From Rubellimicrobium roseum (lineage in GTDB: Bacteria; Pseudomonadota; Alphaproteobacteria; Rhodobacterales; Rhodobacteraceae), in NCBI RefSeq assembly GCF_006152145.1, contig NZ_VDFV01000033.1, forward strand, positions 1 through 42,954: a stretch of DNA of 42,954 bases, in the 5' to 3' direction. Shown piece after piece: positions 2,165-22,771 of this stretch; the first letter of the stretch is position 1; the number at the start of each line of letters is the position of its first letter. The notes below the pieces were generated by a model. That model had not been told where the DNA came from. It did not search any database and was given only the letters and a program-made list of their open reading frames with translations. The translations under genes were made by a program, and so were the position numbers.

Positions 2165-2219
2165 CGGGTCCTCGTGGCTTAGGGTGAAGTCGGACAACTC
2201 CACCTTAGCCGCACACCCC
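1419..2219 (-). mobile_element. IS256-type insertion sequence, 5' part
   Basis: Left over from an IS256-family element interrupted by the IS1182-type insertion. Its own terminus is probably near 2219, where the minus strand begins GGGGTGTGCGGCTAAGG, directly before the istB start codon at 2221. The rest of the element should lie beyond the IS1182-type copy, left of the window. Confidence 0.65.
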
Positions 2220-2220
2220 G

Positions 2221-2898: not shown

Positions 2899-2912
2899 CC
2901 CGCGCCCTCCCG

Positions 2913-2930
2913 TCGGCCCTGACGGGCCGA
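2913..2930. terminator. Hairpin downstream of istB
   Basis: TCGGCCC (2913-2919) and GGGCCGA (2924-2930) form a perfect 7-bp stem with a 4-nt loop 15 bp after the istB stop. There is no T tract, so this is at best a weak terminator. Confidence 0.3.
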
Positions 2931-3065
2931 AGCGCCTCGGCCCGCGCCAGCTCTGTGGAAAGCGCACGGGCCAAGGCGATGCCCCATTCCCAGCGTCAGG
3001 CTCCATCCGCCAAGTGGCCGACTATCGCGTCGCCCTTTGGCTGGAAATTGCTCCGCCGTTGACAG

Positions 3066-4001
3066 ATCGCCATCGCCGCCGCGAAGGCTGGCAAGCACAT
3101 CATCTGCGAAAAGCCGCTCGCGCGGACCATTGAGGAGGCCCGCGCCATGGCGGAGGCCGTGCGCGAGGCGGGCGTCATCCACATGGTCGCCTTCAACTAC
3201 CGCCGCACACCCGCCGTGGCGCTCGCCAAGAAGTACATCGAGGAAGGCCGGATCGGCCGCATCCTGAACTTCCGCGGCACCTATCTCCAGGACTGGTCCG
3301 CCGACCCTGACGGGCCGCTCTCCTGGCGTTTCCAGAAGCGGATCGCGGGGTCCGGGACGACGGGCGACATCGCGACCCATGTCGTGGACCTCGCCCACTA
3401 CCTCGTGGGGCCGATCGCCGAGGTGAACTCGATGGTCCATACCTACGTCACGACCCGGCCGATCCAGCAGGGCGGCGTCGACAAGCTCGGCGCTTCCGAG
3501 AAGTCGGCCGCCGCCGAACGGGGCGAGGTGGACGTGGACGACGAGGTCATCTCCATGCTGCGCTTCGAGAATGGCGCGGTGGGCTCCCTTGAGGCGTCCC
3601 GCAACGCCTGGGGCCGCAACAACTTCATCACGCTCGAGATCCACGGCACCGAGGGCTCGATCCACTTCAACTACGAGCGTCGCGACGAGCTCCAGGTGAT
3701 GTTCCGGAACGACCCAGCGGACGCGCGGGGCTTCCGCACCGTCTACACCGGCCCGGCGCATCCCTATGGCGAGGGGCTCTGGCCCATTCCGGCCCTCGGC
3801 ATCGGCTACTCCGAGACCAAGATCGTCGAGTGCCGGGACTTCTTCGCCGCCATCGCCCAGAACAAGCTGCCCTCGCCCAACTTCGAGGACGGCCTCAGGA
3901 CCGAGTACGTGGCCGATGCGCTCCTGCGGTCCGGCGAGACCGGACACTGGGAGCGGGTCGAGGGGTCGGCAGGGGCCCGGGCCCAGGAGCGCGTCGCATG
4001 A
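3066..4001 (+). pseudogene. Gfo/Idh/MocA-family oxidoreductase, N-terminus lost to IS21 insertion
   Basis: NAD(P)-dependent sugar or inositol dehydrogenase family. The reading frame is open from 3066, immediately after the IS21 end, with IAIAAAKAGKHIICEKPLA; the EKP motif is the family's cofactor and substrate lysine motif. The catalytic-type segment GSGTTGDIATHVVDLAHYL follows, and the C-terminus is complete. The N-terminal Rossmann GxGxxG segment (about 70-80 residues) is missing. The first ATG is at 3147, downstream of EKP. The stop overlaps the ATPase start (ATGA at 3998), so it belonged to the same operon and probably oxidised the sugar that the transporter imports. Confidence 0.85.
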
Positions 4002-5572
4002 GCACGCCCGCGGCCGTCCGCATGACGGGCATCTCCAAGTCCTTCGGGGGCGTCCGCGCCCTCGATGCGGTGGACTTCGAGGTGCTTCCGGGTGAGGTCC
4101 ACGCCCTGCTCGGCGGCAACGGCGCGGGCAAGAGCACGATCCTCAAGGTGCTGAACGGCGTCCACAAGCCGGACGCCGGGACCGTCGAGGTGGGCGGCCG
4201 GGTCCTCAAGGCGCACACGCCTGAGGAGTCCCGCGCCGCCGGCATTGCCATGAACTACCAGGAGATGAGCCTGATCCCGACGCTCACCGTTGCGCAGAAC
4301 GTCTTCCTGACGCGCGAGGCACGGACGGGGCGGGGCCTCATCGACGACAAGGAGGCCGAGCGGCGCACGGCCCAGATCTTCGACCTGCTCGAGGTGCGGG
4401 TCGATCCTCGCGCCCGGGTGGGGGACCTCGGCGCGGGCTCGAGGCAGCTGACCGAGATCGCCAAGGCGATCAGCAAGGACGCCAAGGTCCTGATCCTCGA
4501 CGAGCCCTCGACCGCGCTCGCCGTGTCGGACGTGGAGCGGCTCTTCGTCTTCCTGCGCAAGCTCAAGGCCAAGGGCGTCGCCATCGTCTATGTCAGCCAC
4601 CGCATGGACGAGATCGCGCGCATCGCCGACCGCGCCACGATCCTGCGCGACGGGCGGCACGTCATCACCGCGCCGCTCTCGGAGCTGCCCATCGACACCA
4701 TGATCGAGCACATCGTCGGCAAGAGGTCCAAGGGGCTGGCCGACGTGGCGCGAGGGGATGTGTCCCGGGGCGAGGTACTCCTTGAACTCAGAAACGTCAC
4801 CGGGCGGCACAAGCCGGACAACCTGAACCTCACGGTGCACCGGGGCGAGGTGGTGGGTCTCGCGGGCCTACTCGGTTCGGGTAGGTCGGCCACGGCACGG
4901 GTGATTGCAGGGATCGAGCCGCATGTCGCGGGTGAGATCCGCATCAAGGGCTACCCGGTCCCGATCCGTACGCCTGGCGAGGCCATCGGGGCGGGCGTGG
5001 CGCTGGTGCCCGAGGACCGGGCCCGGCAGGGCGTGATCGGGGCGCATTCCGTCGCCTCGAACCTTACCATGGGTATCCTCGACCGCCTATCGCGCGGGGG
5101 GCTCGAGGACCGCACCAGGATTCGAGAGATCGCGGATGCCCAGATCAAGCGCCTCGCCATCAAGACGGCGGGGCGGGACGTAGCGGTCTCGACCCTCTCG
5201 GGGGGCAACCAGCAGAAGGTGGTGATCGGGAAGTGGCTCGCCGCCGACCCGGACATCCTGGTGCTGGACGAGCCGACGGCCGGCATCGACATCGGCTCGA
5301 AGTCCGAGATCATCCGGCTCGTCCGAGACCTCGCCGCGCAGGGCAAGGCCATCGTCTTCATCTCGTCGGAGCTCTCCGAACTCCTGACCGCCTGTGACCG
5401 CATCGTGGTCATGGCCGATGGCAAGGCCTGGGCGGACCAGCCGCGCGCCGCCTTCGACGACTCCTTGGTCCCCGAGGAGGACACTGCGCACCGGCTCCAG
5501 GCCGCCGAGCGCAAGCTGCAAGCCGCCATCCAGGAGGCCCTCATCGCAGGACAGGAGGAACCCCGTGTCTGA
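3998..5572 (+). CDS. Sugar ABC transporter ATP-binding protein (RbsA/MglA type)
   Basis: Cytoplasmic ATPase driving a CUT2-class sugar importer. It has 524 aa with two ABC domains. Domain 1 has Walker A GGNGAGKST and Walker B VLILDEPSTAL, with a degenerate signature (LGAGSRQ). Domain 2 has a degenerate Walker A (GLLGSGRSA), a canonical signature LSGGNQQK and Walker B ILVLDEPTAGID. This asymmetry is normal for RbsA proteins. ATG 3998 is chosen because it overlaps the preceding stop and gives the standard start before KSFGGVRAL; the frame is open 56 codons further upstream inside the oxidoreductase. The substrate cannot be inferred, since no periplasmic binding protein is in the window. Confidence 0.93.
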   Translation: MSTPAAVRMTGISKSFGGVRALDAVDFEVLPGEVHALLGGNGAGKSTILKVLNGVHKPDAGTVEVGGRVLKAHTPEESRAAGIAMNYQEMSLIPTLTVAQNVFLTREARTGRGLIDDKEAERRTAQIFDLLEVRVDPRARVGDLGAGSRQLTEIAKAISKDAKVLILDEPSTALAVSDVERLFVFLRKLKAKGVAIVYVSHRMDEIARIADRATILRDGRHVITAPLSELPIDTMIEHIVGKRSKGLADVARGDVSRGEVLLELRNVTGRHKPDNLNLTVHRGEVVGLAGLLGSGRSATARVIAGIEPHVAGEIRIKGYPVPIRTPGEAIGAGVALVPEDRARQGVIGAHSVASNLTMGILDRLSRGGLEDRTRIREIADAQIKRLAIKTAGRDVAVSTLSGGNQQKVVIGKWLAADPDILVLDEPTAGIDIGSKSEIIRLVRDLAAQGKAIVFISSELSELLTACDRIVVMADGKAWADQPRAAFDDSLVPEEDTAHRLQAAERKLQAAIQEALIAGQEEPRV

Positions 5573-7613: not shown

Positions 7614-7862
7614 TCAGTCGAAGGTGGGGGCGGTGCGCCCGGGCTCGCGCGGCGGGACAGTCTCCCCGACCTCGACGCCACCCAGGGGAGCGAAGCGCGC
7701 CCGGATGGCCGCGCCGAGGTCGCGCGGGCCCGGGGAGCTGAGGGCTGCGGCGCGCAGGACGGCGCGCGCCTCCTCCTCCATCGACACGCCCCGCTCGGCC
7801 GCGCGCCGGCGCAGGCCCTGCTTCACGGTCTCGTCGAGGTTGCGGATGGTCAGGCTGGCCAT
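7614..7862 (-). CDS. Ribbon-helix-helix antitoxin (FitA/VapB type)
   Basis: 82-aa antitoxin that neutralises the downstream PIN toxin and represses their promoter. ATG 7862 gives MASLTIRNLDETVKQGLRRRAAERG, a textbook FitA N-terminus: the first strand (ASLTIRNL) contacts DNA and the helices dimerise. An upstream start at 7916 is in frame but adds unrelated residues and would cover the palindromic operator. The C-terminal tail (GETVPPREPGRTAPTFD) would wrap the toxin. Confidence 0.88.
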   Translation of the reverse strand: MASLTIRNLDETVKQGLRRRAAERGVSMEEEARAVLRAAALSSPGPRDLGAAIRARFAPLGGVEVGETVPPREPGRTAPTFD

Positions 7863-7901
7863 GACGGCGGGCTCCCAGGCTGGACACGGGAAGGATAGGA
7901 G

Positions 7902-7920
7902 GTGATTGCAGTGCAATCAA
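7902..7920. promoter_or_regulatory. Palindromic operator before the FitAB-type pair
   Basis: TGATTGCA (7903-7910) and TGCAATCA (7912-7919) form a perfect 8-bp inverted repeat around one base, 40 bp upstream of the antitoxin ATG. FitA-type proteins bind such inverted repeats to autoregulate. Confidence 0.6.
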
Positions 7921-8124
7921 CCTTGCAAGCCGCCTTCCTCATTGACGCCGTCCAGGGTGGAATGTGCCCGACTGCAAGCCGTTTTCACCCATCACAAATT
8001 ACGTCGATTATGCTGACCTCGCATCGGGGGTGAGACACGACGCCGACGAGCAGCAGCCTTTGGTGCCGCGCAGCCGGTGCGCGAGGCCTCGCCAAGTCCC
8101 ACAATCGAAGATAGACATGCTCCA

Positions 8125-8150
8125 CTCTATGGTTTTATAAAATCATAGAG
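8125..8150. promoter_or_regulatory. 26-bp AT-rich palindrome near the replication module
   Basis: CTCTATG (8125-8131) and CATAGAG (8144-8150) flank a TTTTATAAAA core. The whole 26 bp is self-complementary except for one G/T pair. It stands out in very GC-rich DNA and lies 440 bp upstream of repC, in a 700-bp region without genes. It could be a binding site for a partition or replication regulator or an ordinary operator; it does not match the repABC parS pattern GTTN10AAC. Confidence 0.5.
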
Positions 8151-8388
8151 CAGTCCCGCTTTGGAGCCATCCCTCATGGTCCTGCCGCTCAACTCAGGGC
8201 CGCTTCACCTGCGCCCCTTGTCATCGATAAGCGCCGGTCCAACCTCCAGGACGAGCTGGTGGATCGACAAGTGTTTGTCGGCCGCAAAGCGACGCTCCGT
8301 TAAGGACTGTTTGTGCCGCTCGCTGGGCGCGTGTAACGCTGCGCCCCGAGACTCTGATTCAGCCATGGAGGCGCCGGCAGCAGCCTAG

Positions 8389-8427
8389 AAAAGCAAAACC
8401 CCCGCGAGGTGGGCACCTCAACGGGGG
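8389..8427 (-). terminator. Intrinsic terminator of the leftward antisense RNA
   Basis: On the minus strand the stem is formed by 8422-8427 with 8399-8404 (C/G run) and an inner GAGGTG-GG-CACCTC stem (8406-8419), followed by TTTTGCTTTT (8398-8389). Orientation is unambiguous: only the minus-strand transcript ends in a U tract. Confidence 0.75.
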
Positions 8428-8476
8428 GGATGCAAGACCAAGGGACGCCAATCCCTCACGGCCAGTAAGAGTTTCA
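8389..8476 (-). ncRNA. Putative countertranscript RNA (ctRNA) controlling repC
   Basis: repABC-type replicons encode a small antisense RNA just upstream of repC that limits RepC synthesis. Here a strong leftward terminator sits at the right distance upstream of repC, with no other gene for it to serve. A possible promoter is TTGCTT (8510-8505), 16-bp spacer, TAGAAC (8488-8483), which would give an RNA of roughly 85-90 nt. The 5' end is a guess; the terminator is the firm part. Confidence 0.55.
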
Positions 8477-8586
8477 GGTCCGGTTCTAGCATCTCCTCCC
8501 ATCGAAGCAAGCAAAAAGCGCATCCGTGCGACCGGATGAGCCTTGCCCGGTGCTGCCTCGCTCCGACCCATTTGGAACCGAGGACC

Positions 8587-9825
8587 ATGCTCCAACTTGC
8601 TTGCCCCCCTGCGGGCGAGGCCTCCCGTCCCGTGCTGCCTTCAGGCACGACACGCAGCGACGTCGAGCGCCTCCTGCCCACCCTCCGGCGCGCCTTCGCG
8701 CTCTCCGACGCCTGCGCCCTGACGCTCCTGCTGCTCATCCAGACCACCCGGCCATCGGACTGGACCGACCCCGGCGCGAGCCCCGTGTGCTACGCTAGTC
8801 AGGCAAGCCTGGCCGAACGGCTGGGCAAGACCCCGCGCGCGCTCCGCTACGACGAGATGCGGCTCGAGCGCGCGGGCCTCCTCGTCAAGACCACCGCCGC
8901 CAACGGCAGCCGCGGCCGCTTCGCCGGTGGTCAGGTCGTCCAGGGTTTGGACCTCAGCCCCCTGGCGGCCCGTGTGCCCCAGCTCCTCGCCCTCGCCGCC
9001 CAGGAGGAGGCCAGCCGTCTGCACGTCCAGGGCCTGCGTCGCCAATGCTCGGCCGCGCGCCGGGTGTTCAAGGGCGCTCTGCAGCGGCTGCTCGAGCAGG
9101 CCCCCAAGGCGCCCATGACGGCCGAGGCCCTGACCCTCTACGCCGAGCTGCCCCGCCGCTACGACGGAATGGACGCCAGCGCGCTCGCCACGCTCCTCGC
9201 TACGTTGGATGAGGCTGTGGAGAAGTGCCTGGCTGCCCGCGAAATGCGCGCAGATTCTTCCGGTCAGCCGGAACGCGGCTTCCGCCTATCAGTACAAGTT
9301 ACAACAGAAAAAAACCTTGAATCTTGTGTCGCCTCCGCCGACGGGACGCGGCCAGCCGGCACGCCGGCTGACGCTCGCTTGGTGGCGGCGCCTGCCGGCG
9401 CCGAAAAAGGCAGAGAGCCACAGGCTCGCGACTTCCAGCGCGGGCACAAGCCCCATTGGCTCGAGACCTTCACGCCCCGGCGGCTCTACGCGGCGTGCTC
9501 GGAGGACATGCGGATGTACCTCGACGCCACCAAAGGAAGCCGGACCTTGCCCAACGAGCTCGACCTGGTGCGCGCGGCGGTGATGATCCTGCCCGACCTC
9601 GGCATCAACCCCAGCGCCTGGGACGAGGCCAGCGAGGCTATGGGGGACCTCGCCGCCGCGCTCGCGGTGATCGTCATCGACGCGCGCCGCTTCGACCCCG
9701 TGCGCCCCATCCGCAGCCCCGGAGGGGCGCTGCGGTCCTTCGCGCGCCTGGCCATGGCCGGCAAGCTCAACCTCGCGGGCAGCCTGATCGGGCTGGTGGA
9801 GCGCGAGCGGGCAAGGTCCGCATGA
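8587..9825 (+). CDS. repC: Plasmid replication initiator RepC
   Basis: Initiator that binds and opens its own origin. The 412-aa protein has the N-terminal RepC domain, including a winged-helix segment (YASQASLAERLGKTPRALRY then RLERAGLLVKTTAANGSRGRF) and a C-terminal RepC domain (ELDLVRAAVMILPDLGINPSAW, IRSPGGALRSFARLAMAGKL). ATG 8587 follows GAGG at short spacing; ATG 8536 is in frame but lacks a ribosome site. The usual repA and repB partners are not adjacent, so this is a solo repC. The mRNA leader overlaps the antisense RNA, and an AT-rich internal stretch is the likely origin. Confidence 0.88.
   Translation: MLQLACPPAGEASRPVLPSGTTRSDVERLLPTLRRAFALSDACALTLLLLIQTTRPSDWTDPGASPVCYASQASLAERLGKTPRALRYDEMRLERAGLLVKTTAANGSRGRFAGGQVVQGLDLSPLAARVPQLLALAAQEEASRLHVQGLRRQCSAARRVFKGALQRLLEQAPKAPMTAEALTLYAELPRRYDGMDASALATLLATLDEAVEKCLAAREMRADSSGQPERGFRLSVQVTTEKNLESCVASADGTRPAGTPADARLVAAPAGAEKGREPQARDFQRGHKPHWLETFTPRRLYAACSEDMRMYLDATKGSRTLPNELDLVRAAVMILPDLGINPSAWDEASEAMGDLAAALAVIVIDARRFDPVRPIRSPGGALRSFARLAMAGKLNLAGSLIGLVERERARSA
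9284..9330. other. Candidate replication origin (AT-rich tract inside repC)
   Basis: In repABC plasmids oriV lies inside repC at an AT-rich stretch. Around 9286-9330 the coding sequence turns abruptly AT-rich (TACAAGTTACAACAG, a run of eight A, then TTGAATCTTGTG) between GC-rich flanks, at the junction between the two RepC domains. The position matches the known arrangement; function is inferred. Confidence 0.6.
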
Positions 9826-11200: not shown

Positions 11201-11785
11201 GATCCTGGGCCTTCGGCGGTCCGCCGTTCCCAACCTAGACAATGCCAAGTGGTTTCAAGGGGCAAGGGGTTCCGCTCCGGGGACGGCGTCCGAAGGGGTC
11301 GTCATGAGGATCGGCAGGGCGTCGCCCCCTGCGGGGGCCGGGCTCTAGCCCCGTCCAGCCGGCCGGGACCGGAGCTGGGCCGGGCGGCCCGTCTCCGCCC
11401 ATACGGGTTGCGATCCCTGACGCGGGCCCGGCCGGACGGGCCGCGATTGCCTAGCTGAGGGCCGCCCTGCCCCGATCGGGCGCACAGGCCGAAGACAGGA
11501 AGGCCCAAGACAGGAAGAAAGGACCGGGGACCGCCGGTCCCCCCGTCAACACGAAAATGCGGCGCGGCCGGCGCCACCTCCATCTTCCGCGCCGCCCGGA
11601 GAGGCGGCTTGTGCAGACGGAGCCTCCGGCTGGTCCGCTGGATTTTCCTGTTGCCGGGTCCCCCCCCTGCCCTCGCCGGGAGGCAGCCTCCGAAGCAGCG
11701 ACGCCCAGAGCGCCGCCCCTTCGGACGCCGCCCCCATTCTGGAAGAGGGCCAAGCCGAAGGGTCATCCCATCACAGGAGGCCAAC
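11201..11785. other. Gene-free interval before the leading-region genes
   Basis: 585 bp between the divergent H-NS and DUF3768 genes, presumably with both promoters. A hairpin (GGGGACC 11526-11532, GGTCCCC 11536-11542) lies next to a purine-rich tract with the repeat AAGACAGGAAG (11493-11503 region and 11509-11519). No gene was recognised. A stem-loop upstream of such genes could act as a single-strand promoter, but this is speculative. Confidence 0.35.
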
Positions 11786-11794
11786 TTGGCTCAG

Positions 11795-12172
11795 ATGTCC
11801 GAACCCCTCGCCACCGGCCCGTTCCACGGGGGTCGCGTGGCCGAGCAGAACGACCGCTTCCGCCGGAGCTTCGGCGCGGACCCCACCTTGCCGGGCCGGA
11901 TCGTCATCACCCAGGGCGTCGCAGCTTTGGGCGCGGCGGCGCTGGTCCCGCTCATGACCGCGCTCATCCGGTTCGACGACTTCACCGAGGACAACGATCC
12001 CTTCGGGCTCCGCGACTTCGGCGCTTTCGAGATCGAGGCCGAGGGCCGCGCCGTCCGGCTCTACTGGAAGATCGACCTCTTCGATGCGGACGAGCGGTTC
12101 GGGTCCGAGGCCCCCGACGACCCCGACCGGACCCGCCGCGTCCTGACCCTCCTCCTTCCCGAGGAGTGGTGA
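11795..12172 (+). CDS. DUF3768 family protein
   Basis: 125 aa, family of unknown function common on alphaproteobacterial plasmids. Recognisable features are QNDRFRRSFGADPTLPGRIVITQGV, the motif FDDFTEDNDPFGLRDFGAF, and the acidic C-terminal LYWKIDLFDADERFGSEAP followed by RVLTLLLPEEW. AGGAGG at 11775-11780 is better spaced for the in-frame TTG at 11786 than for ATG 11795, so the true start may be three codons earlier. It sits directly before the ParB-like gene, in the same direction. Confidence 0.85.
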   Translation: MSEPLATGPFHGGRVAEQNDRFRRSFGADPTLPGRIVITQGVAALGAAALVPLMTALIRFDDFTEDNDPFGLRDFGAFEIEAEGRAVRLYWKIDLFDADERFGSEAPDDPDRTRRVLTLLLPEEW

Positions 12173-12279
12173 GCGCCGGAGGGGGTGCCCGAGCCGCGCC
12201 CCCTCCCCCTCGCCCCGGAGCGTCTCACGCCGCCTCCGAAGGCCCCCTCCCCTCCCATCATCCCACGAGGACCGTCCCC

Positions 12280-14112
12280 ATGAACGCCCAAACCTTCATC
12301 GCCGAGGCCCCCGAGCTTGTCGCCTTCGCCGACCTTTACCTGTCCCCCCTCAACCCGCGCCGCCTCGTTCCCGAGGCCAGCGTCACCGCCCTGGCGCAAA
12401 ACATCCGCGACCTGGGGCTCATCCAGAACCTCGCGGGCCTCCGGGACGGAACAGGCCGCGTGGGCATCGTCGCCGGGGGCCGCCGGCTGCGCGCCCTGGC
12501 CCTCCTGCAGGACGACCCGCGCTTCCAGGCCATCCCCGTGCGCCTCGCGCCCGACGAGGCCACCGCCGCCGTGTGGGCGTCCTCGGAGAACCACCAGCGC
12601 GAGCAGCCCCATCCCGCCGACGAGGTGCGCGAGTACGGCGCGCTGGCGGCCCGGGGGGTCGACCTTCCCGCCATCGCCATCGCCTTCGGGGTGACCGAGC
12701 GCCACGTCCAGCGCCGCCTCGCCCTCGCGGGCCTGCCCGAGCCCGTCCTCCAGGCGCTGCGGGAGGACGTTCTCAGCCTGGGCCAGGCCGCCGCCTTCAC
12801 CATTAGCGACGACGAGGCGGTGACGCTCGACGTGCTGGCCCGGGTGCGCGGCCACGCCTACAGCGAGGCCCACATCAAGCGCATGCTCAAGCCCGACAGC
12901 ATCCGTGGCAGCGACCGGCGCGCCGTCTTCGTGGGCCGGGACGCCTACCTCGCCGCCGGGGGCCGGATCGGGGGCGACCTGTTCGCCGACGAGGACCTGT
13001 TCGACAGCCCGGACGTGCTCGACCGCGCCTTCGAGGCGAAGCTCCGGGCCGAGGCCGAGGTCCTGCGGCAGGCCGAGGGGTGGAGATGGGCCGCGATCAG
13101 CTTGGAGGACTACGTCTCTTACGCGGAGATCGAGCGGCTGGCCGCCGGGCGCCTCTATCCCGTGCCGGGCGAGCTCACGGAGGAGGAGCAGGAGCGCCAT
13201 GACGAGCTGGCCGAGCTCGCCAACGCCGACGTCCTGGACGAGGCGGGCCTGGCCCTGCTGGACGCGTTGAGCGCCCTGGCCGAGGGCGGCTACACCCCCG
13301 AGCAGAAGGCCCACGCGGGCGTCCTCGTCCATGTGGACCGCACGGGCGAACGCCGGGCCACCCCCGGCCTTGTCCGATCCGAGGACCGCGCCGGGGCCGA
13401 GGAGGCGGGCGTCCTGGCTCCTTCCAGCCATCGCCCCTCCCCCGGGGCGACCGCGCCCGCAGCCAAGCCGTCCCTGTCCGCGACCCTGAGGGAGGACCTG
13501 CGCCGCATCGCGCGGGGTGCGCGGCAGAACGCCCTTCTGGAGACGCCCGACCTCCTCCTCGACCTCCTGGCCTTCCAGATCGGGGGCCGCATGGGGTTCC
13601 TTCGCGCCCTGGGCGTGAAGGCCGACACGGTCGAGACCCAGCCCAGCACCGGGACCGGCTACGTCCTGGACGCGCGCCTGACGACGCCGCCGGACGGCCC
13701 GAAGGACCCCTTCCGCCTCGACCTCGCCAAGGCGTTCCGGGCCTACCGCAAGCAGGGTCCCGAGGCCGTGCGCGCGGACCTCGCGCGGGCGCTGGCGTCG
13801 CTCGTCGACGTGGAGGACGAGGCGCTGGGGCACCTTCTCGACAAGGAGGCCAAGACCACGATCCGCGCCGTCTGGACGCCCACGGCGGAGAACTTCTTCG
13901 GACGCGTGAGCGGGGCCATCCTAGACGACCTGTGGCGGCACCTCCTGGACCTCGCCCCCGAGCATCCCACCGCCACCACCTTTGCCCGGCTCAAGAAGCG
14001 CGAAAAGGCCGAGCGCCTGGAACACCTCTTCGCCGACCCGCGCGCGGTGCGGGGCGTCACCGAGGCGCAGGCCACGCGCATCGCCAAGTGGCTGCCCGAG
14101 GAGCTGGCCTGA
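12280..14112 (+). CDS. Large ParB-like protein (ParB/RepB/Spo0J family)
   Basis: 610 aa. The N-terminal ParB/Srx domain (residues about 15-110) includes LSPLNPRRLVPEASVTALAQ, IVAGGRRLRAL and ASSENHQREQPHPADEV, followed by a KorB-type HTH (IAIAFGVTERHVQRRLALAGL). The long C-terminal half is unlike partition ParB proteins (about 300-350 aa). The size and the neighbouring ssb recall the ParB-like leading-region protein of F-type plasmids (YubM class). No parA is adjacent. ATG 12280 follows ACGAGG by 9 bp; the frame stays open well upstream, but those residues are low-complexity GC-rich translation. Confidence 0.85.
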   Translation: MNAQTFIAEAPELVAFADLYLSPLNPRRLVPEASVTALAQNIRDLGLIQNLAGLRDGTGRVGIVAGGRRLRALALLQDDPRFQAIPVRLAPDEATAAVWASSENHQREQPHPADEVREYGALAARGVDLPAIAIAFGVTERHVQRRLALAGLPEPVLQALREDVLSLGQAAAFTISDDEAVTLDVLARVRGHAYSEAHIKRMLKPDSIRGSDRRAVFVGRDAYLAAGGRIGGDLFADEDLFDSPDVLDRAFEAKLRAEAEVLRQAEGWRWAAISLEDYVSYAEIERLAAGRLYPVPGELTEEEQERHDELAELANADVLDEAGLALLDALSALAEGGYTPEQKAHAGVLVHVDRTGERRATPGLVRSEDRAGAEEAGVLAPSSHRPSPGATAPAAKPSLSATLREDLRRIARGARQNALLETPDLLLDLLAFQIGGRMGFLRALGVKADTVETQPSTGTGYVLDARLTTPPDGPKDPFRLDLAKAFRAYRKQGPEAVRADLARALASLVDVEDEALGHLLDKEAKTTIRAVWTPTAENFFGRVSGAILDDLWRHLLDLAPEHPTATTFARLKKREKAERLEHLFADPRAVRGVTEAQATRIAKWLPEELA

Positions 14113-15364: not shown

Positions 15365-16096
15365 TCACGAACGCCCCCGGCCTGACTTCGCGGTCTTGGC
15401 GTCGTCCAGCTCGGCCAGGACCTCGTCCAGCGCCTGCCAGAACAGCGGCTCGACCTGACCCCGGATGAGGGACCAGTAGGGCGTGATCCGCAGGGGGTCG
15501 TGCTCGTGCAGCAAGGTCGTCAGCGCCTCGGCGTTCAGCCGAAGGGTGGTGGAGAACCCGTACGCGCGGCCCTCCGAGCGCTCGACGGCGAGCGGCTCGA
15601 CGTAGCCGGGCGCCAGGGTGTAGCGGGCCGCGCATCTCTGCCAGGCCGCCTTGAGGACCCGCTGGGGCGGCAAGCCGGTGGCATCGATCCGGGGCACCTG
15701 AGCCAGGAGCGGCCGGACCCAGATCGAGAACATCGTCTTGGCCTCCTGGCCTCGGGCCTTCCTCGTCGGCGCGGGCGCGGCCGGGATGGCCGGTGAGGGG
15801 GCGGGAGCGAGAGGTTGCGGCGCGCGGGCCTTGGCCGTCCGCGCCGCCACGGGGGTCTCGACCGGTCGCCGCTCGACGGGCTGGGGTTCGATGGATTGGG
15901 GCTCGACGGGCAAGGGCGCGACCGCAGCGGGGGTCGGCTCCGCCGCCGGGGCCAGTGGCTCGCGCGTCGGAGCCTGCGCCTCGACCGCGGCCGCCTCCTC
16001 CGGCGCGGGCGGGGCTCCCAGCGCGCCGCCGCCGGGGAAGGGCTTGGTGTATTCGGTGTCGCGCGAGAGGATGGGCTGTATCCTGCGGATCGCCAT
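15365..16096 (-). CDS. virC2: VirC2-like conjugation accessory protein
   Basis: 243 aa, starting 3 bp after the virC1 stop. In Agrobacterium, VirC2 works with VirC1 at the overdrive site to boost T-strand formation. The N-terminal 110 residues are Pro/Ala/Glu-rich and disordered-looking. The C-terminal part (IDATGLPPQRVLKAAWQRCAARY, then TLRLNAEALTTLLHEHDPL) has the pattern of the VirC2 ribbon-helix-helix-like core followed by its C-terminal helices. Sequence similarity to known VirC2 is weak, so the name rests largely on position next to virC1. Confidence 0.6.
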   Translation of the reverse strand: MAIRRIQPILSRDTEYTKPFPGGGALGAPPAPEEAAAVEAQAPTREPLAPAAEPTPAAVAPLPVEPQSIEPQPVERRPVETPVAARTAKARAPQPLAPAPSPAIPAAPAPTRKARGQEAKTMFSIWVRPLLAQVPRIDATGLPPQRVLKAAWQRCAARYTLAPGYVEPLAVERSEGRAYGFSTTLRLNAEALTTLLHEHDPLRITPYWSLIRGQVEPLFWQALDEVLAELDDAKTAKSGRGRS

Positions 16097-16099
16097 GGA

Positions 16100-16825
16100 T
16101 TACCCCCTGAGGATGTCGGTGAGAACTTCGCTGCACTCCACGACCGCTTCCTCGAAGCGGCGCGCTTGCGAGCGCTGGAGCGGGTCCGCGTGGTTGCGGT
16201 AGCTGGCGACCAGGTCGCCCAGGAAGCCCTGCTCGTCCATTTCCACGTAGGCGGTCCGCTCCTGGACGACGATGCCGACGAGCGGAAACCGCTTGATCGC
16301 CTCCTGCAGCATCCGCTGGTGGACCTTGGTGGCCTTGGCCTGCGCCGGAAACCGGGTGAGGAGGACGTTGTGGGTCGGGAGACGGTCCGGCTCCGCGACG
16401 CGGCCCCGGAGGCGCTTGAACCAGTCCACGGTCTGGGCGCAGACGGCCATGTCGGCGTCCGAGGGCAGGACCGGCGTCACCAGATGATCGGCCACCATCG
16501 CGATCTCGTCAGACCATTCCGTGCCCGATCCGGCGGTGTCGATGAACACGAGGTCGGTCTGGCCGGCCTCCTGCGCCGCGATGATGGTGTCCTCGAGATC
16601 GGTGCTGGTGGTGGCGCCATAGAAGCTGACGCCGGACGGGACGGCGCCGCGCGCCTGGAGCTTGCGGAACCACAGGGTGACGTCGCCCTGCGGGTCGGTG
16701 TCGATCACGAGAACGGTTCGACCGCTGGACAGGGCGGCCGAGGACAGGGCCTTCACGAGCGACGACTTCCCGCAGCCGCCCTTGCGCGCCATCAGCGCCA
16801 CCACCTTCATGTCTGCGTTCGCCAT
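16100..16825 (-). CDS. virC1: ParA-family ATPase, VirC1-like
   Basis: 241 aa, close to Agrobacterium VirC1 (231 aa). The deviant Walker A is ARKGGCGKSSLVKAL, with VLVIDTDPQGDVTLW (switch) and LVFIDTAGSGTEW. VirC1 proteins bring the relaxosome to the pole and to the coupling protein. A role as the plasmid ParA is also possible, since no other parA is seen. The start is ATG 16825; ATG 16810 is an alternative. The gene is divergent from mobC-virD2-virD4, and its upstream side begins 48 bp before the heptanucleotide array. Confidence 0.85.
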   Translation of the reverse strand: MANADMKVVALMARKGGCGKSSLVKALSSAALSSGRTVLVIDTDPQGDVTLWFRKLQARGAVPSGVSFYGATTSTDLEDTIIAAQEAGQTDLVFIDTAGSGTEWSDEIAMVADHLVTPVLPSDADMAVCAQTVDWFKRLRGRVAEPDRLPTHNVLLTRFPAQAKATKVHQRMLQEAIKRFPLVGIVVQERTAYVEMDEQGFLGDLVASYRNHADPLQRSQARRFEEAVVECSEVLTDILRG

Positions 16826-16873
16826 ACCTGTCGTCCTGCTCCTTGCCTTGCCGATCCGCGCCGGCTTGATGGA

Positions 16874-17265
16874 TCCTCTGTAATCCGTCGTCCGTCCTCC
16901 TGCATCGCTGATCGCTCGTCCGCTGCCGTTCGTCGGTCGTCTGTCGTAAGCCTACAACGATCCGGCGTCCGTCGTCCGCAGGCCGTGGTCCGCCATCCAG
17001 CGTCAGCAATCCACCGTCTGTCGTCCGTCATCTGTGATCTTTCGTAGTTCTACCATCGTCTGTGGGCTGTGTTCGCCGCCCTACTGTCGATGATCGTTCA
17101 TCCGTCGACGGGTGTCCGTCGAACTTTATCGACGAACCGCCGTCCGTCATCAGCCGTCCGCCATCCTTCATCAATGATCCGTCGCCTCTGGTCCACCATC
17201 TGCCGTCCGTCGTCAAGCGTCGCGCGTCTGGCGTCCATCGTCCACCATCTCGCGTCCGCTATCCG
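16874..17265. repeat. Array of 56 in-phase degenerate 7-bp repeats
   Basis: Cutting the + strand every 7 bases from 16874 gives 56 heptads with consensus (T/C/G)-C-(G/A)-T-C-C-G and no register break over 392 bp. By hand count 44 of 56 have TC at positions 4-5. Exact copies include TCGTCCG (16888, 16916, 16972, 17021), CCGTCCG (17140, 17154, 17203) and GCGTCCG (16965, 17252). It fills most of the interval between divergent virC1 and mobC. Three heptads (21 bp) make two helical turns, so regular protein binding on one face is possible. Overdrive-like or centromere-like function is inference. Confidence 0.85.
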
Positions 17266-17322
17266 TCAAAGTTGGGCGGCGCGGGCCGCGCCGGGGCGGT
17301 CCGAGAGCCCGCCCGATAATGT

Positions 17323-17370
17323 CTACCGTCGACCTCCGCGCCGCTTGTGCGACGAGTCGCTCGACGGTAG
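17323..17370. other. Candidate oriT core: perfect inverted repeat
   Basis: CTACCGTCGA (17323-17332) and TCGACGGTAG (17361-17370) are perfect 10-bp arms. The 28-bp spacer contains a second hairpin, GCGAC-GA-GTCGC. The repeat ends 39 bp before the mobC ATG, where relaxosome accessory proteins usually bind oriT and repress their own gene. No exact ATCCTG-type nick site of the RP4/Ti family was found nearby, so the nick position is unassigned. Confidence 0.5.
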
Positions 17371-17408
17371 GGTTAGATGGCGGGAAATAGGGATGTTAAC
17401 TTTACACC

Positions 17409-18005
17409 ATGGCCTCCGCCGCGCCTTCCGCCTCCCCCCGACGCCGCCTGACCCAGGGCCAACGGCTTGAGATCGCACGCGAGCGGGCGAAGGGTGTGGA
17501 GGCGAAGGACCTGGCGGCCCGGTTCGGGGTCAGCCGTCAAACCATTCACGCCGTGGTTCGGGAGCTGCGCGACGCGCCGTCCTTCCAGGGCCGAGGCACC
17601 TCCGTGCTGGGCCTGCGGGTGACGGACCAGGAGGCGCGGGACTTCGAGGCAGCGGTCGGCCGGCTCGGGCTCTCCAAGACAGAGGCCCTGCGGCGGCTGA
17701 TGCGGTCGGCGGTCCCGCTTCTCGCCCCCGACGACGAGGTGGCGGCCCGGCTCAAGCAGCTCGGCGCCGAGATCAACCGCGTCGGCGGCAACCTCAACCA
17801 ACTGTCCCGGGCCTGCAACGAGGCCCGCCTGAGAGGGGAGCCCCTTCCCTATACGGCGCAGTCCCACGCCGAGGTGCGGGCAGCCATCGCCGTCGTGTTC
17901 GAGGCCGTGGCCCAGGTCGGGCAACTGGCGCGCGGGCAGCGGCGGCAGCTCGACGTGGTGGTGGCGGGCGTGCTGCAAGACGAGGGCGGCGGTGAGCCCG
18001 CGTAG
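17409..18005 (+). CDS. MobC/VirD1-like relaxosome accessory protein with added HTH
   Basis: 198 aa. Residues about 13-52 (LTQGQRLEIARERAKGVEAK, DLAARFGVSRQTIHAVVREL) are a helix-turn-helix of the transposase/resolvase type. The rest resembles MobC/VirD1: GLRVTDQEARDFEAAVGRLG, SKTEALRRLMRSAV, and the hallmark AEINRVGGNLNQLSRACNEA. It would bind oriT and help VirD2 nick. The HTH fusion is unusual and may link oriT binding to regulation or to the adjacent repeat array. The stop lies inside the virD2 start region (14-bp overlap). Confidence 0.85.
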   Translation: MASAAPSASPRRRLTQGQRLEIARERAKGVEAKDLAARFGVSRQTIHAVVRELRDAPSFQGRGTSVLGLRVTDQEARDFEAAVGRLGLSKTEALRRLMRSAVPLLAPDDEVAARLKQLGAEINRVGGNLNQLSRACNEARLRGEPLPYTAQSHAEVRAAIAVVFEAVAQVGQLARGQRRQLDVVVAGVLQDEGGGEPA

Positions 18006-19941
18006 CCTCGGGCCGGCGGCCGCGCTTCTCGAGGAGGGCTGGAGCCGCAACCGGGGCAGGGGAGGGGGGGCGTCACCGCCCCGGTCCAAGGGGCCCGGAG
18101 CGTCCCTGGGCCGGGCGGGGCAGATGGCGCGGGCGGCCACCGGCGCCCGTGCGGCGGTGTTCAAGGCGATCCGCCACGGCGGGTGCCACAGCCGCACGGA
18201 GCTCGCGCGCCAGATCGCCTATGTCGGCACCAAGTCGAGCCATGTCTTCGACGCCCAGGGTGCCTATGACGGCCAGCGCGTCCTCACGCCCGCGCAGGTC
18301 CGGGAGGTGACGGAGCGGTTTGCCCGGACCTGGGATCCCGCGCGGCCGACCAAGCTCGGGCACACGTCGCACCTCCTGTTGTCCTTCCCCATCGGCACGA
18401 AAGCTCACGCGGTGCGGGAGGTGACGCGCGGCGTCGTGGAGCAGTTCTTCCAAGGGGACGGCGCGCAGTTCGACTACCTCGTGGCCGTCCACGAGGATCG
18501 GGCGCACACCCACGCCCATGTCATCCTCAACCGCCACAGCCCCGATGGCGAGATGTTCTATCTGCGGTCGGGTCACCACTTCAGCTACGAGCTGTTCCGT
18601 GAGGCGATGGTGGCGCATGGCGAGCGCCATGGCGTGCGCCTGGAGGCCACGCGGCGGCTCGACCGGGGCCTCGTGACGTATGATGCGCGCTCCACGGAGG
18701 TCCGGCAGGCCCGCGCGGCCGGGCTGGACACATCCGAGCGTCCCCGGCTCGGGCGTGATCTGGAGCACGCCCGCCGGCACATCGCTCTGGCTGCCTCGAC
18801 CTACCAGGGGCTGGCGGGTCTCGCGAGCGGTCTGGGCTTCGAGCGGGTGAGCCAGGCTCTCCAGCGGGCGAGCCTGACGCTCGCCCGCAACGGCGTCGTC
18901 CTACCAACACGGGAGATCGAGATGGCTGACACACAGGGCTCGTTCGACGGCCTCCTCCGGGAGTTCGGACGAAACGTGCAGGCCTTGGAGGAGCGCATCG
19001 CCACCGCGTCTCCCCCGCAGAGGCCCCGCCTGGAGCGGGGGCTCACGGACGCGCTGGCGCAGGTCGCCGCCCTCAACCCCCTGGGGGAGCGCAGCGCCTC
19101 GCTTCGGGAGGCGCCCAGCCCCTTCGGGGTCTACAGCCAGGCGCGCATCGCGCGGGACGCGCTCGACCGCCTCGACGATCCGCCCGTCCGGGCGGCGGTG
19201 GATGCCGCGGTGCGCGGCACGGGGCTCTCGGCCAGCGAGATCCTGGCGCGGGTGAAGGTGGGGGCGGACCGCGCGGCGCTGGAGGACCACTGGCACGCGA
19301 GCGACCTGCAGGCCGTGGCGGCCTCCGATGGCGCGCGCGCGCCGGGGTCCGACCGGCCTAGGGAGCTGACGGGGCCGGCCAAGGAGCAGGCGCTGGACCG
19401 CCTCGACGAGGTCTATGACCGGATCGAGACCGTGCTGCAGAATGTGGGGGTGCTGCGGGAGGCCCGCGTGGCGGACGAGGTCCGCGAGCGCGCCGAGGCG
19501 GTCGTGACCCGCAGCCTCCCCTCGGCCGCCCTCGACGTTCCCGCGCCGCGGGCCGACACGCGCGCCGGGATCGCGGACGAGACCGGGCGGACGGCGCGCC
19601 ATCCCCTGATCGCCGCCACCGCCCTGCGGCTGCGCGACCAGGCCGCGCCGGAGACCGCCTTCCGCGACGGGACCCAGGCCCAAGTCTTCCACGCCGCGCT
19701 CGAGCGCGCGCTGGCGCCCGAGGAGTTGCGGCGGCTGCGCCAGGGGGATGAGACGGCCCTCGCCCGCCTCGCGGGCGACCGGCTGGAGCGGCTGGCTCTC
19801 GCCAAGGCCTATCTGGAGAGCGACGCGGCCACGCGGAACAGCCCCGCCCATCTTCGCGTGCTCAAGCAGATCGTGAGCGATCAGGTGGACGAACGCCGCC
19901 TGGCCCGAGGCCACGAGGAGGAGGGACCCACGCATGGCTAG
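17992..19941 (+). CDS. virD2: VirD2-type relaxase
   Basis: 649 aa; nicks oriT, stays bound to the 5' end and pilots the strand. GTG 17992 overlaps the mobC end; MARAATGARAAVFKAI at 18124 is an alternative start matching where the conserved domain begins. Likely catalytic Tyr77 is in RQIAYVGTKSS. The metal-binding motif HEDRAHTHAHVILNR (H167, H174, H176) is complete. The C-terminal 350 residues are helical and charged and probably carry the secretion signal for VirD4 (ending RRLARGHEEEGPTHG). The stop overlaps the virD4 start by 8 bp. Confidence 0.9.
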   Translation: MSPRSLGPAAALLEEGWSRNRGRGGGASPPRSKGPGASLGRAGQMARAATGARAAVFKAIRHGGCHSRTELARQIAYVGTKSSHVFDAQGAYDGQRVLTPAQVREVTERFARTWDPARPTKLGHTSHLLLSFPIGTKAHAVREVTRGVVEQFFQGDGAQFDYLVAVHEDRAHTHAHVILNRHSPDGEMFYLRSGHHFSYELFREAMVAHGERHGVRLEATRRLDRGLVTYDARSTEVRQARAAGLDTSERPRLGRDLEHARRHIALAASTYQGLAGLASGLGFERVSQALQRASLTLARNGVVLPTREIEMADTQGSFDGLLREFGRNVQALEERIATASPPQRPRLERGLTDALAQVAALNPLGERSASLREAPSPFGVYSQARIARDALDRLDDPPVRAAVDAAVRGTGLSASEILARVKVGADRAALEDHWHASDLQAVAASDGARAPGSDRPRELTGPAKEQALDRLDEVYDRIETVLQNVGVLREARVADEVRERAEAVVTRSLPSAALDVPAPRADTRAGIADETGRTARHPLIAATALRLRDQAAPETAFRDGTQAQVFHAALERALAPEELRRLRQGDETALARLAGDRLERLALAKAYLESDAATRNSPAHLRVLKQIVSDQVDERRLARGHEEEGPTHG

Positions 19942-22432
19942 CGCCCGCACCCTCCCGGCCGCCCTGGCCCTCGCCGCGTTCGGCGCGACTGGGGGTTACG
20001 TCCTCGCCAACGCCTACGTCACCGTCCGCTTCGGGGGCTCGCCCACCCATTTCGCTCCTCTGTTCCTGGCCCGCAACGTGCTCCCGATCTATGAGCGCGC
20101 GCCCCGGGAGTTCTGGACGGCGGTCGCCATTCTCGCGGCCTCGGTCCTGACGGCCCTGGCGCTCTTCGCGCTTCCCGCCCTCCTGACCGCCACCCGCCGG
20201 TTCCGCGAGGACGCCGTACGCGCCCGGCAGAGCGGCATCTCCACGGACTCGACGGGCCGCTTCATGGCGGGCGGCTTGGTCTTCGCCCTTTTCGGCGGCG
20301 TCGTGGGCTACGTCGCGGCCTCCGCCTACCTCACCGTCCGCTTCGGGGGCTCGCTCGAGCGCATCGACTTCGGCTACCTCGCCCGCCACGTGGTCCCGCT
20401 CTACCGCCAGGCGCCCCAGGAGTTCCGGGTGGCGGCCCTCCTCGTCGGCGCCGGCGTCCTTGCCCCCTTGGGGATGATGACCATGCTGACCCTCAACGAA
20501 CGGCTCACCACCTTCGGCGTCACCCACTGGCAGAGCCGCCGCGAGATCCGCCGGAACGGGTTCCTGACCGAGCCCGGCCACGGCTTCGTCCTGGCCAAGC
20601 TCGGCGCTCCCGAGACCAAGGAGCCGTTCCTGGTGTCGCGGGACTTCCCGCACGCCCTCATGATCGCCCCCACGGGCCGGGGGAAGGGGGTGGGCTTCGT
20701 GACGCCCAACCTCCTTCTCTTCAAGGGCTCGGTCGTGGTGCTCGACGTAAAAGGCGAGAACTTCGAGAACACCGCCCGGAACCGGGCGGCGATGGGGGAC
20801 CGCGTCATCCGCGTGGCGCCGCTGGACTGGACTGGCCGCACGCACCGCTACAACCCGCTCCAGCGTATCCACGAGCTGCCGCATCCCGATCAGCGCATGC
20901 TGGCGCTGCAGAAGACGGCGCGCCTGTTCCTGCAGTCCACCGAGAGCACGCAAGGGCTCCTGCAAGGCGGGATCGACATCTTTGTGGCCTGCGGCCTTCT
21001 GGCCTTCGAGCAGGGCCGGCCGACCATCGGTGCCATCTACGATCTCGCGACGGGGGGCGGCAACAAGCAGAAGGCCTACGCCGAGCTGGCCTGTCAGGTG
21101 ACCTACGAGCCTGCGCGCCGGATGCTCGCGAACCTGGCGTCCATCAACGACAAGACCCTGACCTCCTACCTGTCCGTTCTCCTGACCTCGGGCCTGGGCC
21201 TATGGGCGAACCCGGCCATCCACGCCGTGACCAGCCGGTCGGACTTCTCGTTCAGCCAGATCCGGCGCAAGCCCCATGCCATCTACTTCGAGGTGCCGCC
21301 CGACGACATCGAGACGCTCGCGCCCCTGGCGCGGCTGTTCTTCTCGGACCTAATCGCCTCGCTCCAATCCCATCGGCCCGGTGCGGACGAGCCCGGGAAG
21401 GTCATGATCGTGCTCGACGAGTTCGACCGCTTGGGGCGGATGCCGATCGTGGCGGAGTCCATCAAGACGCTGCGCGGCTATGGCGCGCATCTGGCGATCG
21501 TCACCCAGAGCATTCCGGCGCTCGACGAGCTTTACGGCGAGAACGTGCGGCTGTCGCTTCAGGCCGGGGCCGGGGTGAAGCTCTACTTCACCCCGTCCGA
21601 CGCCAAGACCGTCGGGGAGGTGAGCGCCACGCTTGGCAAGACCACGCGACGGGTCATCTCGAAGTCGCGTCCCCTGGGCCTGAGCCCCCTGCGCGCCCGC
21701 ACGGTGAGCGAGCGGACGGAGGAGGCCCCGCTCATGTCCGAGGACCAGGTCCGCCGGATGCCCCTCGGCGACGTGATCCTCGCCATCGACGCGCAGATGC
21801 CGATCCGGGCGCAACGCCTCGTGTTCCACGAGGACCTGATCCTCCGAGCCGTCTTTGACGCGCAAGCGGGCGAGCTGCCTTATCCCCCCGCGCTCCCCAA
21901 GGCCGCGCCGGCGTTGCCGGCCCTTCCCGCACCCGAGGACGCCGGTCCGCCCGCGTTGCCCCGTCCGGCGGAACCGACGGAGCCAGGGCCTGGCGCCGTC
22001 GCGCCGGCCCGAGACGAGGCCGAGCCTCCTGCACCTGTGCGGCTGGTGCCGTCCGCTCGCCGGGTGGCCGTGACGGAGGCGCGACCCGTTTCCGCCATTC
22101 AGCCGCTCGAGGCCGTGGTGAGGACGGAGGATGCGGCGGCCCTGCGCCAGGCCATTCGGCGGATCGAAGGGCTGCTTGCCACGCCGGACGCGATTCTCCG
22201 CCCCCGTCGGGCGCGGACCAAGACCCGGAAGCTGGTCGTGTCCGCGCGCCGCGCGAGCATCGGACAGGCCAAGACGGTCCTGTTCATCCAGCCCAGCGAC
22301 CTGTCCGGGACGCCGGAGGACGAGGCCGCCCTTCGGCGCGCCAACGCGCAGGTCATCCGGCTCGAGGATCTGGTGACCGACGAGGCAGATGAGGCGGACG
22401 ATCCCCCCACCCAAGAGGGGCCAGACGTGTAG
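19934..22432 (+). CDS. virD4: VirD4-type coupling protein with duplicated membrane anchor
   Basis: 832 aa; inner-membrane ATPase that delivers the relaxosome to the VirB pore. Walker A is APTGRGKG (245-252), Walker B is VMIVLDEFDRLG (about 490-501), followed by the TQSIPALDELYG motif. Residues about 8-83 and 110-185 are two copies of the same TM-periplasmic-TM unit: both contain AY(V/L)TVRFGGS, a LAR(N/H)V(L/V)P(I/L)Y segment and AP(R/Q)EF before the second helix. This gives four predicted membrane segments instead of two. The C-terminal 200 residues are Pro-rich, then basic and acidic. Confidence 0.92.
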   Translation: MASARTLPAALALAAFGATGGYVLANAYVTVRFGGSPTHFAPLFLARNVLPIYERAPREFWTAVAILAASVLTALALFALPALLTATRRFREDAVRARQSGISTDSTGRFMAGGLVFALFGGVVGYVAASAYLTVRFGGSLERIDFGYLARHVVPLYRQAPQEFRVAALLVGAGVLAPLGMMTMLTLNERLTTFGVTHWQSRREIRRNGFLTEPGHGFVLAKLGAPETKEPFLVSRDFPHALMIAPTGRGKGVGFVTPNLLLFKGSVVVLDVKGENFENTARNRAAMGDRVIRVAPLDWTGRTHRYNPLQRIHELPHPDQRMLALQKTARLFLQSTESTQGLLQGGIDIFVACGLLAFEQGRPTIGAIYDLATGGGNKQKAYAELACQVTYEPARRMLANLASINDKTLTSYLSVLLTSGLGLWANPAIHAVTSRSDFSFSQIRRKPHAIYFEVPPDDIETLAPLARLFFSDLIASLQSHRPGADEPGKVMIVLDEFDRLGRMPIVAESIKTLRGYGAHLAIVTQSIPALDELYGENVRLSLQAGAGVKLYFTPSDAKTVGEVSATLGKTTRRVISKSRPLGLSPLRARTVSERTEEAPLMSEDQVRRMPLGDVILAIDAQMPIRAQRLVFHEDLILRAVFDAQAGELPYPPALPKAAPALPALPAPEDAGPPALPRPAEPTEPGPGAVAPARDEAEPPAPVRLVPSARRVAVTEARPVSAIQPLEAVVRTEDAAALRQAIRRIEGLLATPDAILRPRRARTKTRKLVVSARRASIGQAKTVLFIQPSDLSGTPEDEAALRRANAQVIRLEDLVTDEADEADDPPTQEGPDV

Positions 22433-22459: not shown

Positions 22460-22771
22460 TCAGCCGCCCAGGTCCTCGCGGAAGCGGTCCATCTGGTGCA
22501 TGGCCTCGTGCAGGATGGTGACGATGCCGATGTCGCCGTTCGACAGCCGGCGCCAGTAGACGACATGGTGCCCCTGCCGGAGATAGAAACCCTCGACGCC
22601 GAACTCGGCCGGGATCGGCCGTGAGATCACGCCATGGCTCTCGATCTTGTCGAAGGCGGCGAAAAGGTCGGTGATGTACCGCTCCGCCTGAGCCGCGCCC
22701 CAGCGGTCGCGGGTGTAACGGTAGATCTCGTCGAGCCGCAGCGAGGCGGCCTCCTGGACGCGAACGGGCAC
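22460..22771 (-). CDS. parE: ParE/RelE-family toxin
   Basis: 103-aa toxin; ParE members poison gyrase and RelE members cleave mRNA. Family features are VRVQEAASLRLDEIYRYTRD, ITDLFAAFDKI and the C-terminal HHVVYWRRLSNGDIGIVTIL followed by HEAMHQ, typical of ParE. It starts at GTG 22771, 5 bp after the antitoxin stop. It is convergent with virD4 (27-bp gap). Confidence 0.88.
   Translation of the reverse strand: MPVRVQEAASLRLDEIYRYTRDRWGAAQAERYITDLFAAFDKIESHGVISRPIPAEFGVEGFYLRQGHHVVYWRRLSNGDIGIVTILHEAMHQMDRFREDLGG

Follow-up and report, generated by a model that had tools for sequence, protein, structure and literature searches.

What is the purpose of a row of 56 heptanucleotides, held in one phase over 392 bp, between two divergent genes of a plasmid transfer module? 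The question arises from a contig of Rubellimicrobium roseum, analysed as a single stretch of 42,954 nucleotides (hereafter, the window). The array divides virC1 and a gene for a VirC2-like protein, both on the minus strand, from mobC, a VirD2-like relaxase gene and virD4 on the plus strand. Its placement between divergent virC1 and mobC and beside a likely origin of transfer (oriT), as the original prediction had it, is supported by the following features.

15365..16096, minus strand: VirC2-like protein with a predicted tandem ribbon-helix-helix (RHH) in its C-terminal half (alignments A3/A4 and an AlphaFold model; no match to the Pfam VirC2 model, PF07181)
16100..16825, minus strand: VirC1, ParA-type ATPase (Pfam VirC1 59.6 bits, cut-off 24; NCBI VirC1 equivalog under its cut-off)
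16874..17265, plus strand: heptad array, 56 units, consensus TCGTCCG on the mobC strand, position 5 being C in 53 of 56
17323-17344 and 17349-17370, no strand: arms of the inverted repeat of the putative oriT, 77% complementary
17378..17400, plus strand: nic-region candidate TGGCGGGAAATAGGGATGTTAAC, with GGCAAGAAATA as the relatives' form (motif only)
17409..18005, plus strand: MobC/VirD1-like relaxosome protein, helix-turn-helix and NikA-like domain (Pfam NikA-like 28.1 bits, cut-off 27; VirD1 model E 6.5e-7, below cut-off)
17992..19941, plus strand: VirD2-like relaxase (Pfam Relaxase E 1.3e-11; VirD2 model E 7.7e-16, below cut-off)
19934..22432, plus strand: VirD4-like coupling protein (Pfam T4SS-DNA_transf E 4.1e-75)

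Inverted repeats like that at 17323-17370 are visible by eye in printed relatives. The nic-like motif, which we take to resemble a T-DNA border, with a nick position predicted by motif only, sits 112 bp from the window array on its mobC side. All 80 loci from L138 to L217 have the form GGCAAGAAATA no more than 230 bp ahead of mobC, and a looser nic-like motif is present in 40 of the 48 array loci and 57 of the 66 array-less loci of our first survey. By analogy with the border, the array would lie on the leading side of the putative nic. Further downstream, a ParE-like toxin ORF (22460-22771) is found between virD4 and the virB-type genes.

A recount of the window array reproduced the coordinates of the 56 heptads exactly, with zero register slips, as it did the predicted count of TC at positions 4-5 (44/56); the consensus near TCGTCCG also holds. 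Autocorrelation of the 392-bp interval gives a clear period of 7, with a mean identity of 0.511 at lags 7-42, far above the 0.280 ± 0.010 (maximum 0.313) of 1000 dinucleotide shuffles. When the window was scanned by Fourier analysis in 392-bp frames, all of the top 12 positions overlapped the array, from which TRF recovered fragments only, at periods 14 and 28. Identity between heptads is flat with distance, at 0.46-0.53 over lags of 1-30 heptads. The longest unbroken run of a fixed base is 20 units, and the arrays of L004, L017 and L018 are likewise without long runs. A blastn-type search of the same genome returned no second copy of the array, and when 72,556 plasmid records were searched with the interval by blastn, none matched at E 0.01. 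The genome does hold a second virC1/mobC locus, on contig C79 (G000:C79, L018), where mobC shows 59% identity and the array has another heptad motif of its own. Two other candidate roles were rejected: the 36 dissimilar arrays described below have no common open frame, the best being open through 20 of the 36, and no structured RNA was matched in Rfam at the gathering threshold over positions 16000-18000.

The nature of the repeat is clearer in the relatives. Celeribacter-type arrays have one fixed column, a C recurring at 7-bp steps on the mobC strand, and the longest unbroken C run at this step is 22-57 units over 80 loci, reaching at least 40 in 25 of them. In 2220 shuffles of 111 loci the longest run was 13 (once) and 2205 shuffles gave 9 or fewer. 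In 36 dissimilar arrays, picked because their runs extend to 20 units or more, a purine follows the fixed base (read as C) in 91%, and the remaining positions are loose. Phaeobacter piscinae pP36_d has a G 46 times running, and Gemmobacter a C in 40 of 40 units. In intervals of the 553-bp type, 28 units are typically followed by a fixed step of 8 bp and then by 23 more units.

Substitutions follow the same division of columns. In 15 close pairs, which are not independent since some loci were used twice, the most informative column carries 13 substitutions at 613 sites, versus 551 at 3654 for the other six; for three columns each, the counts are 156/1837 versus 337/1822. One pair, L112/L113, is an exception with 5 substitutions in 40 in the top column. 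The window array and its near twin L003, in the same place on a plasmid of G005, differ by 64 substitutions and a single 14-bp (two-heptad) gap, and L022 differs from L028 by a single 112-bp gap over the interval. Gap events that are multiples of 7 make up 21 of 49 inside arrays versus 13 of 86 outside, a result counted as adverse; 13 of the 49 in-array events are of 1 bp, many at the known 8-bp step.

The first survey comprised 116 loci, found by MobC search or fetched as named plasmids, with period 7 scored between virC1 and mobC or ahead of mobC; two duplicates were dropped to leave 114, in which at least one more pair, L027 and L040 with equal record lengths, is apparently one plasmid counted twice. 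The scores are bimodal, with 66 loci at 0.011-0.086, 48 at 0.189-0.522 and none between. The 7-bp array is present in 37 of the 40 loci with an adjacent virC1, versus 11 of the 74 without; conversely, 63 of the 66 array-less loci have a related mobC and no adjacent virC1. A second survey took the best 80 of 174 confirmed matches to an alignment of MobC from array-bearing loci, nearly all labelled Rhodobacterales, and found the array in 80 of 80 (lowest score 0.172) and virC1 in 78. Being close relatives, whose MobC shares 56-99% identity with the query, these loci are not independent; the two surveys also overlap, as with L157 and G009:C38, whose contigs are of equal length. No period-7 array was seen at L224, L226, L228 and L218, which are virC1 or VirC2 loci without a mobC annotated beside them. 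The consensus differs from group to group while period and phase persist, and in this the drift in sequence anticipated by the original prediction is borne out. Evidence for arrays outside the Rhodobacterales comes from three plasmids: L025 of Martelella, with period 7, and L225 of Jiella and L268 of Acuticoccus, both with period 8.

The original prediction held that plasmids with the same genes, lacking an array and transferring normally, would tell against a function. Plasmid pDSHI01 of Dinoroseobacter shibae is reported to conjugate (PMC4886583), and has a related mobC and no array, so that the array appears dispensable for VirB/VirD4 transfer in general. It is, however, also without virC1 in the 3.5-kb stretch examined.

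The association with virC1 extends to other unit lengths. In a scan of periods 5-20, all 48 array loci gave 7 or 14 and 64 of the 66 others gave nothing; of the remaining two, L010 has a weak period 19, and L016, where virC1 is present, has period 9. L016 is one of the three virC1 exceptions of the first survey and has a C 33 times running, and the other two, L013 and L014, have a weak period 8 that was not flagged in the 5-20 scan but was seen in a scoring of periods 5-12. By the latter scoring, 10 of 13 further named virC1 loci beat all 30 of their own shuffles at period 7, 8 or 9. Period 7 was found in L230 and L231; period 8 with long runs in P. inhibens pP70_e and the M627 plasmid nearly identical to it (unbroken C runs of 37 and 42), with runs of 8-15 in Roseobacter denitrificans pTB1, R. 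litoralis pROLI81, Jiella pelagia and Acuticoccus I52.16.1, and with runs no longer than those of its shuffles in Paracoccus marcusii; and period 9 in Haematobacter pOT1-9 (run 14). L269 beats its shuffles best at period 12, and the virC1 loci L227 (Sinorhizobium) and L267 (Acuticoccus) show no array at periods 5-12. It follows from the loci with period 8 or 9 that the constant going with virC1 is an exact pitch and not 7 bp. The period-8 and period-9 arrays of L223, L264 and L016, with 33-42 unbroken invariant bases, all lie in virC1-virD1/mobC intervals.

The variable pitch weakens an argument of the original prediction, that three heptads bring the same helical face round every 21 bp. A 21-bp super-period is clear in 27 pooled arrays (0.373 versus 0.341, shuffle standard deviation 0.0043), with z above 2 in 8 of the 27 and negative values in L024 and L059. 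The component is not clear in the window, at 0.008 over the whole array and z 1.8 in the longest run. The helical-face argument is weaker because sister arrays run at period 8 or 9 and the window gives no clear 21-bp signal.

Eight loci without an adjacent virC1 (L007, L019, L067, L069, L070, L074, L086 and L088; hereafter, satellites) have a G every 7 bp, 19-31 times. Their motif is the Celeribacter type inverted, with a correlation of 0.78-0.93 to L022 where 99% of the null lies below 0.66. A nic-like motif precedes mobC, which is the one relaxosome gene seen with these arrays. In ten genomes picked for array loci without virC1, a match to the L022 relaxase was absent from six (G415, G235, G182, G226, G282 and G387), all of the satellite group, and a VirC2-like match from nine, including those six. 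A VirC1-family search of 14 genomes gave no match in G415 and G282 and only weak matches in the rest of the satellite group, except G009, which also holds a complete plasmid. Satellites occur in chromosome-sized contigs, of 3.55 Mb in G415 and 4.08 Mb in G235, the latter with three weak VirC1-family matches, all elsewhere. Around two such satellites, where 5 of 9 and 4 of 9 large ORFs were scanned with Pfam, a helix-turn-helix mobC was identified and no relaxase or T4SS domain.

The satellites resemble passengers that mimic the oriT found on complete plasmids, and their retention of the array without an adjacent virC1 argues for a role in transfer rather than as a promoter element for virC1. 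Near the satellite module of G235 (L243) are genes for a SIR2-like/STAND protein (1582-4062) and a HipA protein (7814-9145), and a HipA-like sequence is apparently also beside the module in L074, as judged by eye. Separately, the tiny plasmids L240 (pTB4, Roseobacter) and L241 (pSG4, Sulfitobacter) have a mobC-like gene with GGCAGGAAATA 34 bp before it, no annotated relaxase and no array, and are perhaps another kind of satellite.

The array, its phase and position, the constraint on each column, the link to virC1 and the retention in satellites are properties that can be read from the DNA itself. On balance we think it probable that the array acts in cis in transfer, as a tightly packed series of sites for a tandem RHH protein, most likely the VirC2-like one, which engages VirC1. 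A relaxosome DNA-binding protein, for which the neighbouring VirC2-like protein is the leading candidate, would polymerise on the array, each unit taking one subunit. The block of protein and DNA so formed would aid assembly of a VirD1/VirD2-type relaxosome at the adjacent nic site and engage the ParA-type ATPase VirC1, which would in turn conduct the complex towards VirD4 and the VirB channel. We infer the reading protein, its filament and the effect on transfer; a transfer enhancer or centromere-like nucleator, as suggested in the original prediction, is the best reading.

The AlphaFold model of the VirC2-like protein is consistent with this role. Its N-terminal half is of low confidence, while residues 121-240 reach pLDDT 85-97 in blocks, and the succession E118-127, H131-139, H144-158, E179-188, H189-199, H207-240 amounts to strand-helix-helix twice. 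Foldseek returned nothing under E 0.07; VirC2 (2rh3) was sixth, a weak match with E 0.24 and probability 0.75, and F relaxosome chains, presumably TraY, were among the top rows with weak E-values. Nine proteins were scanned with PF07181 and only L133, beside the period-9 array of L016, matched (36.7 bits, cut-off 25). Class-wide, PF07181 was found in 2 of 385 genomes, once over the cut-off, and the VirC2-like alignment in 1 of 367, the source genome itself. Taken together, the RHH-like model, the TraY train, the pSM19035 heptads and the VirC1/overdrive system, all compared below, favour a VirC2-like filament acting together with VirC1 as the most economical interpretation.

A serious rival, although we hold it to be unlikely, is that the transfer element is read by MobC, whose N-terminal helix-turn-helix or NikA-like domain would polymerise from the oriT inverted repeat into the array. 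MobC has to be taken seriously, since it is the protein encoded in the satellites and covariation fails to separate the two readers. The absence of any VirC2-like gene found with the satellites, where mobC is present, was counted against the VirC2-like reader, and the last invariant C falls 123-124 bp before mobC in 76 of 80 Celeribacter-type loci. Motif similarity correlates equally weakly with identity of the VirC2-like protein (rho 0.30) and of MobC (rho 0.33; 105 pairs from 15 loci), and so does not discriminate. Against MobC, the array tracks virC1, as the counts of the first survey attest, and a related mobC is the rule in array-less loci. Moreover, the MobC proteins of the window and L022 are 42% identical yet their motifs are unrelated (r 0.17), whereas satellite MobCs at 32-39% share the L022 motif; the closest MobCs to the satellites, among those compared, are also in the L022 group. 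The MobC model, with a helix-turn-helix, long helices and no RHH strand, was set aside at pTM 0.39.

It is improbable that the array serves segregation as a parS, a plasmid centromere used by VirC1 and the VirC2-like protein, and lies beside oriT by chance. A ParA-type ATPase, a predicted RHH protein and contiguous heptads do reproduce the partition layout of pSM19035, but the array and its invariant base are kept in the chromosome-sized contigs of G415 and G235, neither of which has a VirC2-like match, and the window plasmid encodes its own repC and ParB-like genes. A ParB-like protein of 851 amino acids, long for a ParB, is encoded near repC (11557-14112).

More improbable still is an operator through which virC1 and mobC are autoregulated, for all that the array occupies much of the interval between the divergent genes and that parS of pSM19035 overlaps promoters (PMC9499535). 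In our judgement 20-57 units seem far beyond the need of an operator, satellite arrays lack an adjacent virC1, and the distances from the array to virC1 (2-282 bp, where present) and mobC (104-518 bp) vary by group. Finally, a neutral relic of replication slippage, an option of the original prediction, is strongly disfavoured and scarcely credible: slippage can yield low-complexity DNA of short period and the consensus does differ among groups, but near heptads are no more alike than far ones, one nearly unchanging column stands beside changing ones, and the array recurs in nearly all virC1-adjacent loci and in every close relative of the second survey.

A broader proposal may also be ventured, and we do so tentatively. 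Such arrays could form a new class of oriT element, a "ruler" or transfer centromere of about 20-60 units at equal pitch with one obligatory base pair each, whose pitch of 7, 8 or 9 bp would be dictated by the subunit footprint of the partner protein. Through this element a ParA-type motor would be loaded onto the relaxosome, and satellites in chromosomes would copy the element so as to be carried by passing plasmids. Segregation motors would then be physically linked to conjugation at an oriT with a very long built-in platform for ParA loading, and one fixed base per 7, 8 or 9 bp would make the packing of the partner protein directly testable. The satellites suggest which parts of oriT suffice for mobilisation. 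The proposal would also supply a sequence signature for detecting such oriTs; three array-bearing plasmids are typed as non-mobilizable in PLSDB. Among the literature matches listed, which cover titles and abstract openings and have subscription journals mostly outside their scope, none reports arrays of this kind at oriT.

In comparison to known systems, the array resembles iterons in being a tandem set of putative protein sites on a plasmid. Sequences next to other ParA genes (L236-L238 and L066) have period-7 scores of 0.13-0.16 that derive from longer repeats, L237 (0.156) and L238 (0.134) passing the mark of 0.13 set for an array. None of 8 partition-type ParA loci has an invariant column, the iteron-like stretches reaching 10/14 to 12/16 at best. 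Iteron-like GGTAACT/ACACGAAT repeats lie near ParA-type genes in three genomes (L066 2284-2391, L237 1623-1730 and L238 1580-1680).

The overdrive and the Ri-plasmid T-DNA transfer stimulator are comparable as cis elements near a border-like nic site in a system of VirC1, VirC2, VirD1 and VirD2; for the array, VirC1 is encoded alongside and the nic site is predicted from its motif. In Agrobacterium, VirC1 binds overdrive, promotes relaxosome assembly and polar recruitment with VirC2, and recruits the relaxosome to the channel (PMC4949242, PMC4285021). Overdrive is described as 24 nt directly outside the right border (PMC5030305), to its right (PMC4285021), whereas the array would be, by the border analogy, on the other, leading side. 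TraY, a single-chain RHH protein of which three molecules pack side by side as a train in the F relaxosome (PMC12117103), has the layout predicted for the VirC2-like protein. The train is of three molecules versus tens of units here, and the portion of that report consulted names no ParA-type partner (PMC12117103).

A close likeness in architecture is to parS of pSM19035, in which 7-10 contiguous 7-bp repeats (WATCACW) are read by an RHH ParB that works with ParA (PMC9499535). Four contiguous repeats are needed there, and heptads of either orientation work alike (PMC9499535). Orientation can vary among the heptads of pSM19035, and here the row is inverted in the satellites. The two differ in that the array has some 20-60 units in which essentially a single base pair is fixed, follows a consensus other than WATCACW (TCGTCCG in the window and different again in other groups), lies at a likely oriT and has sisters with periods 8 and 9, and the partition role is one established for pSM19035. 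They have in common contiguous, spacer-free 7-bp units and a ParA-type partner, here VirC1; for the array a reader of the RHH fold, like that of pSM19035, is predicted.
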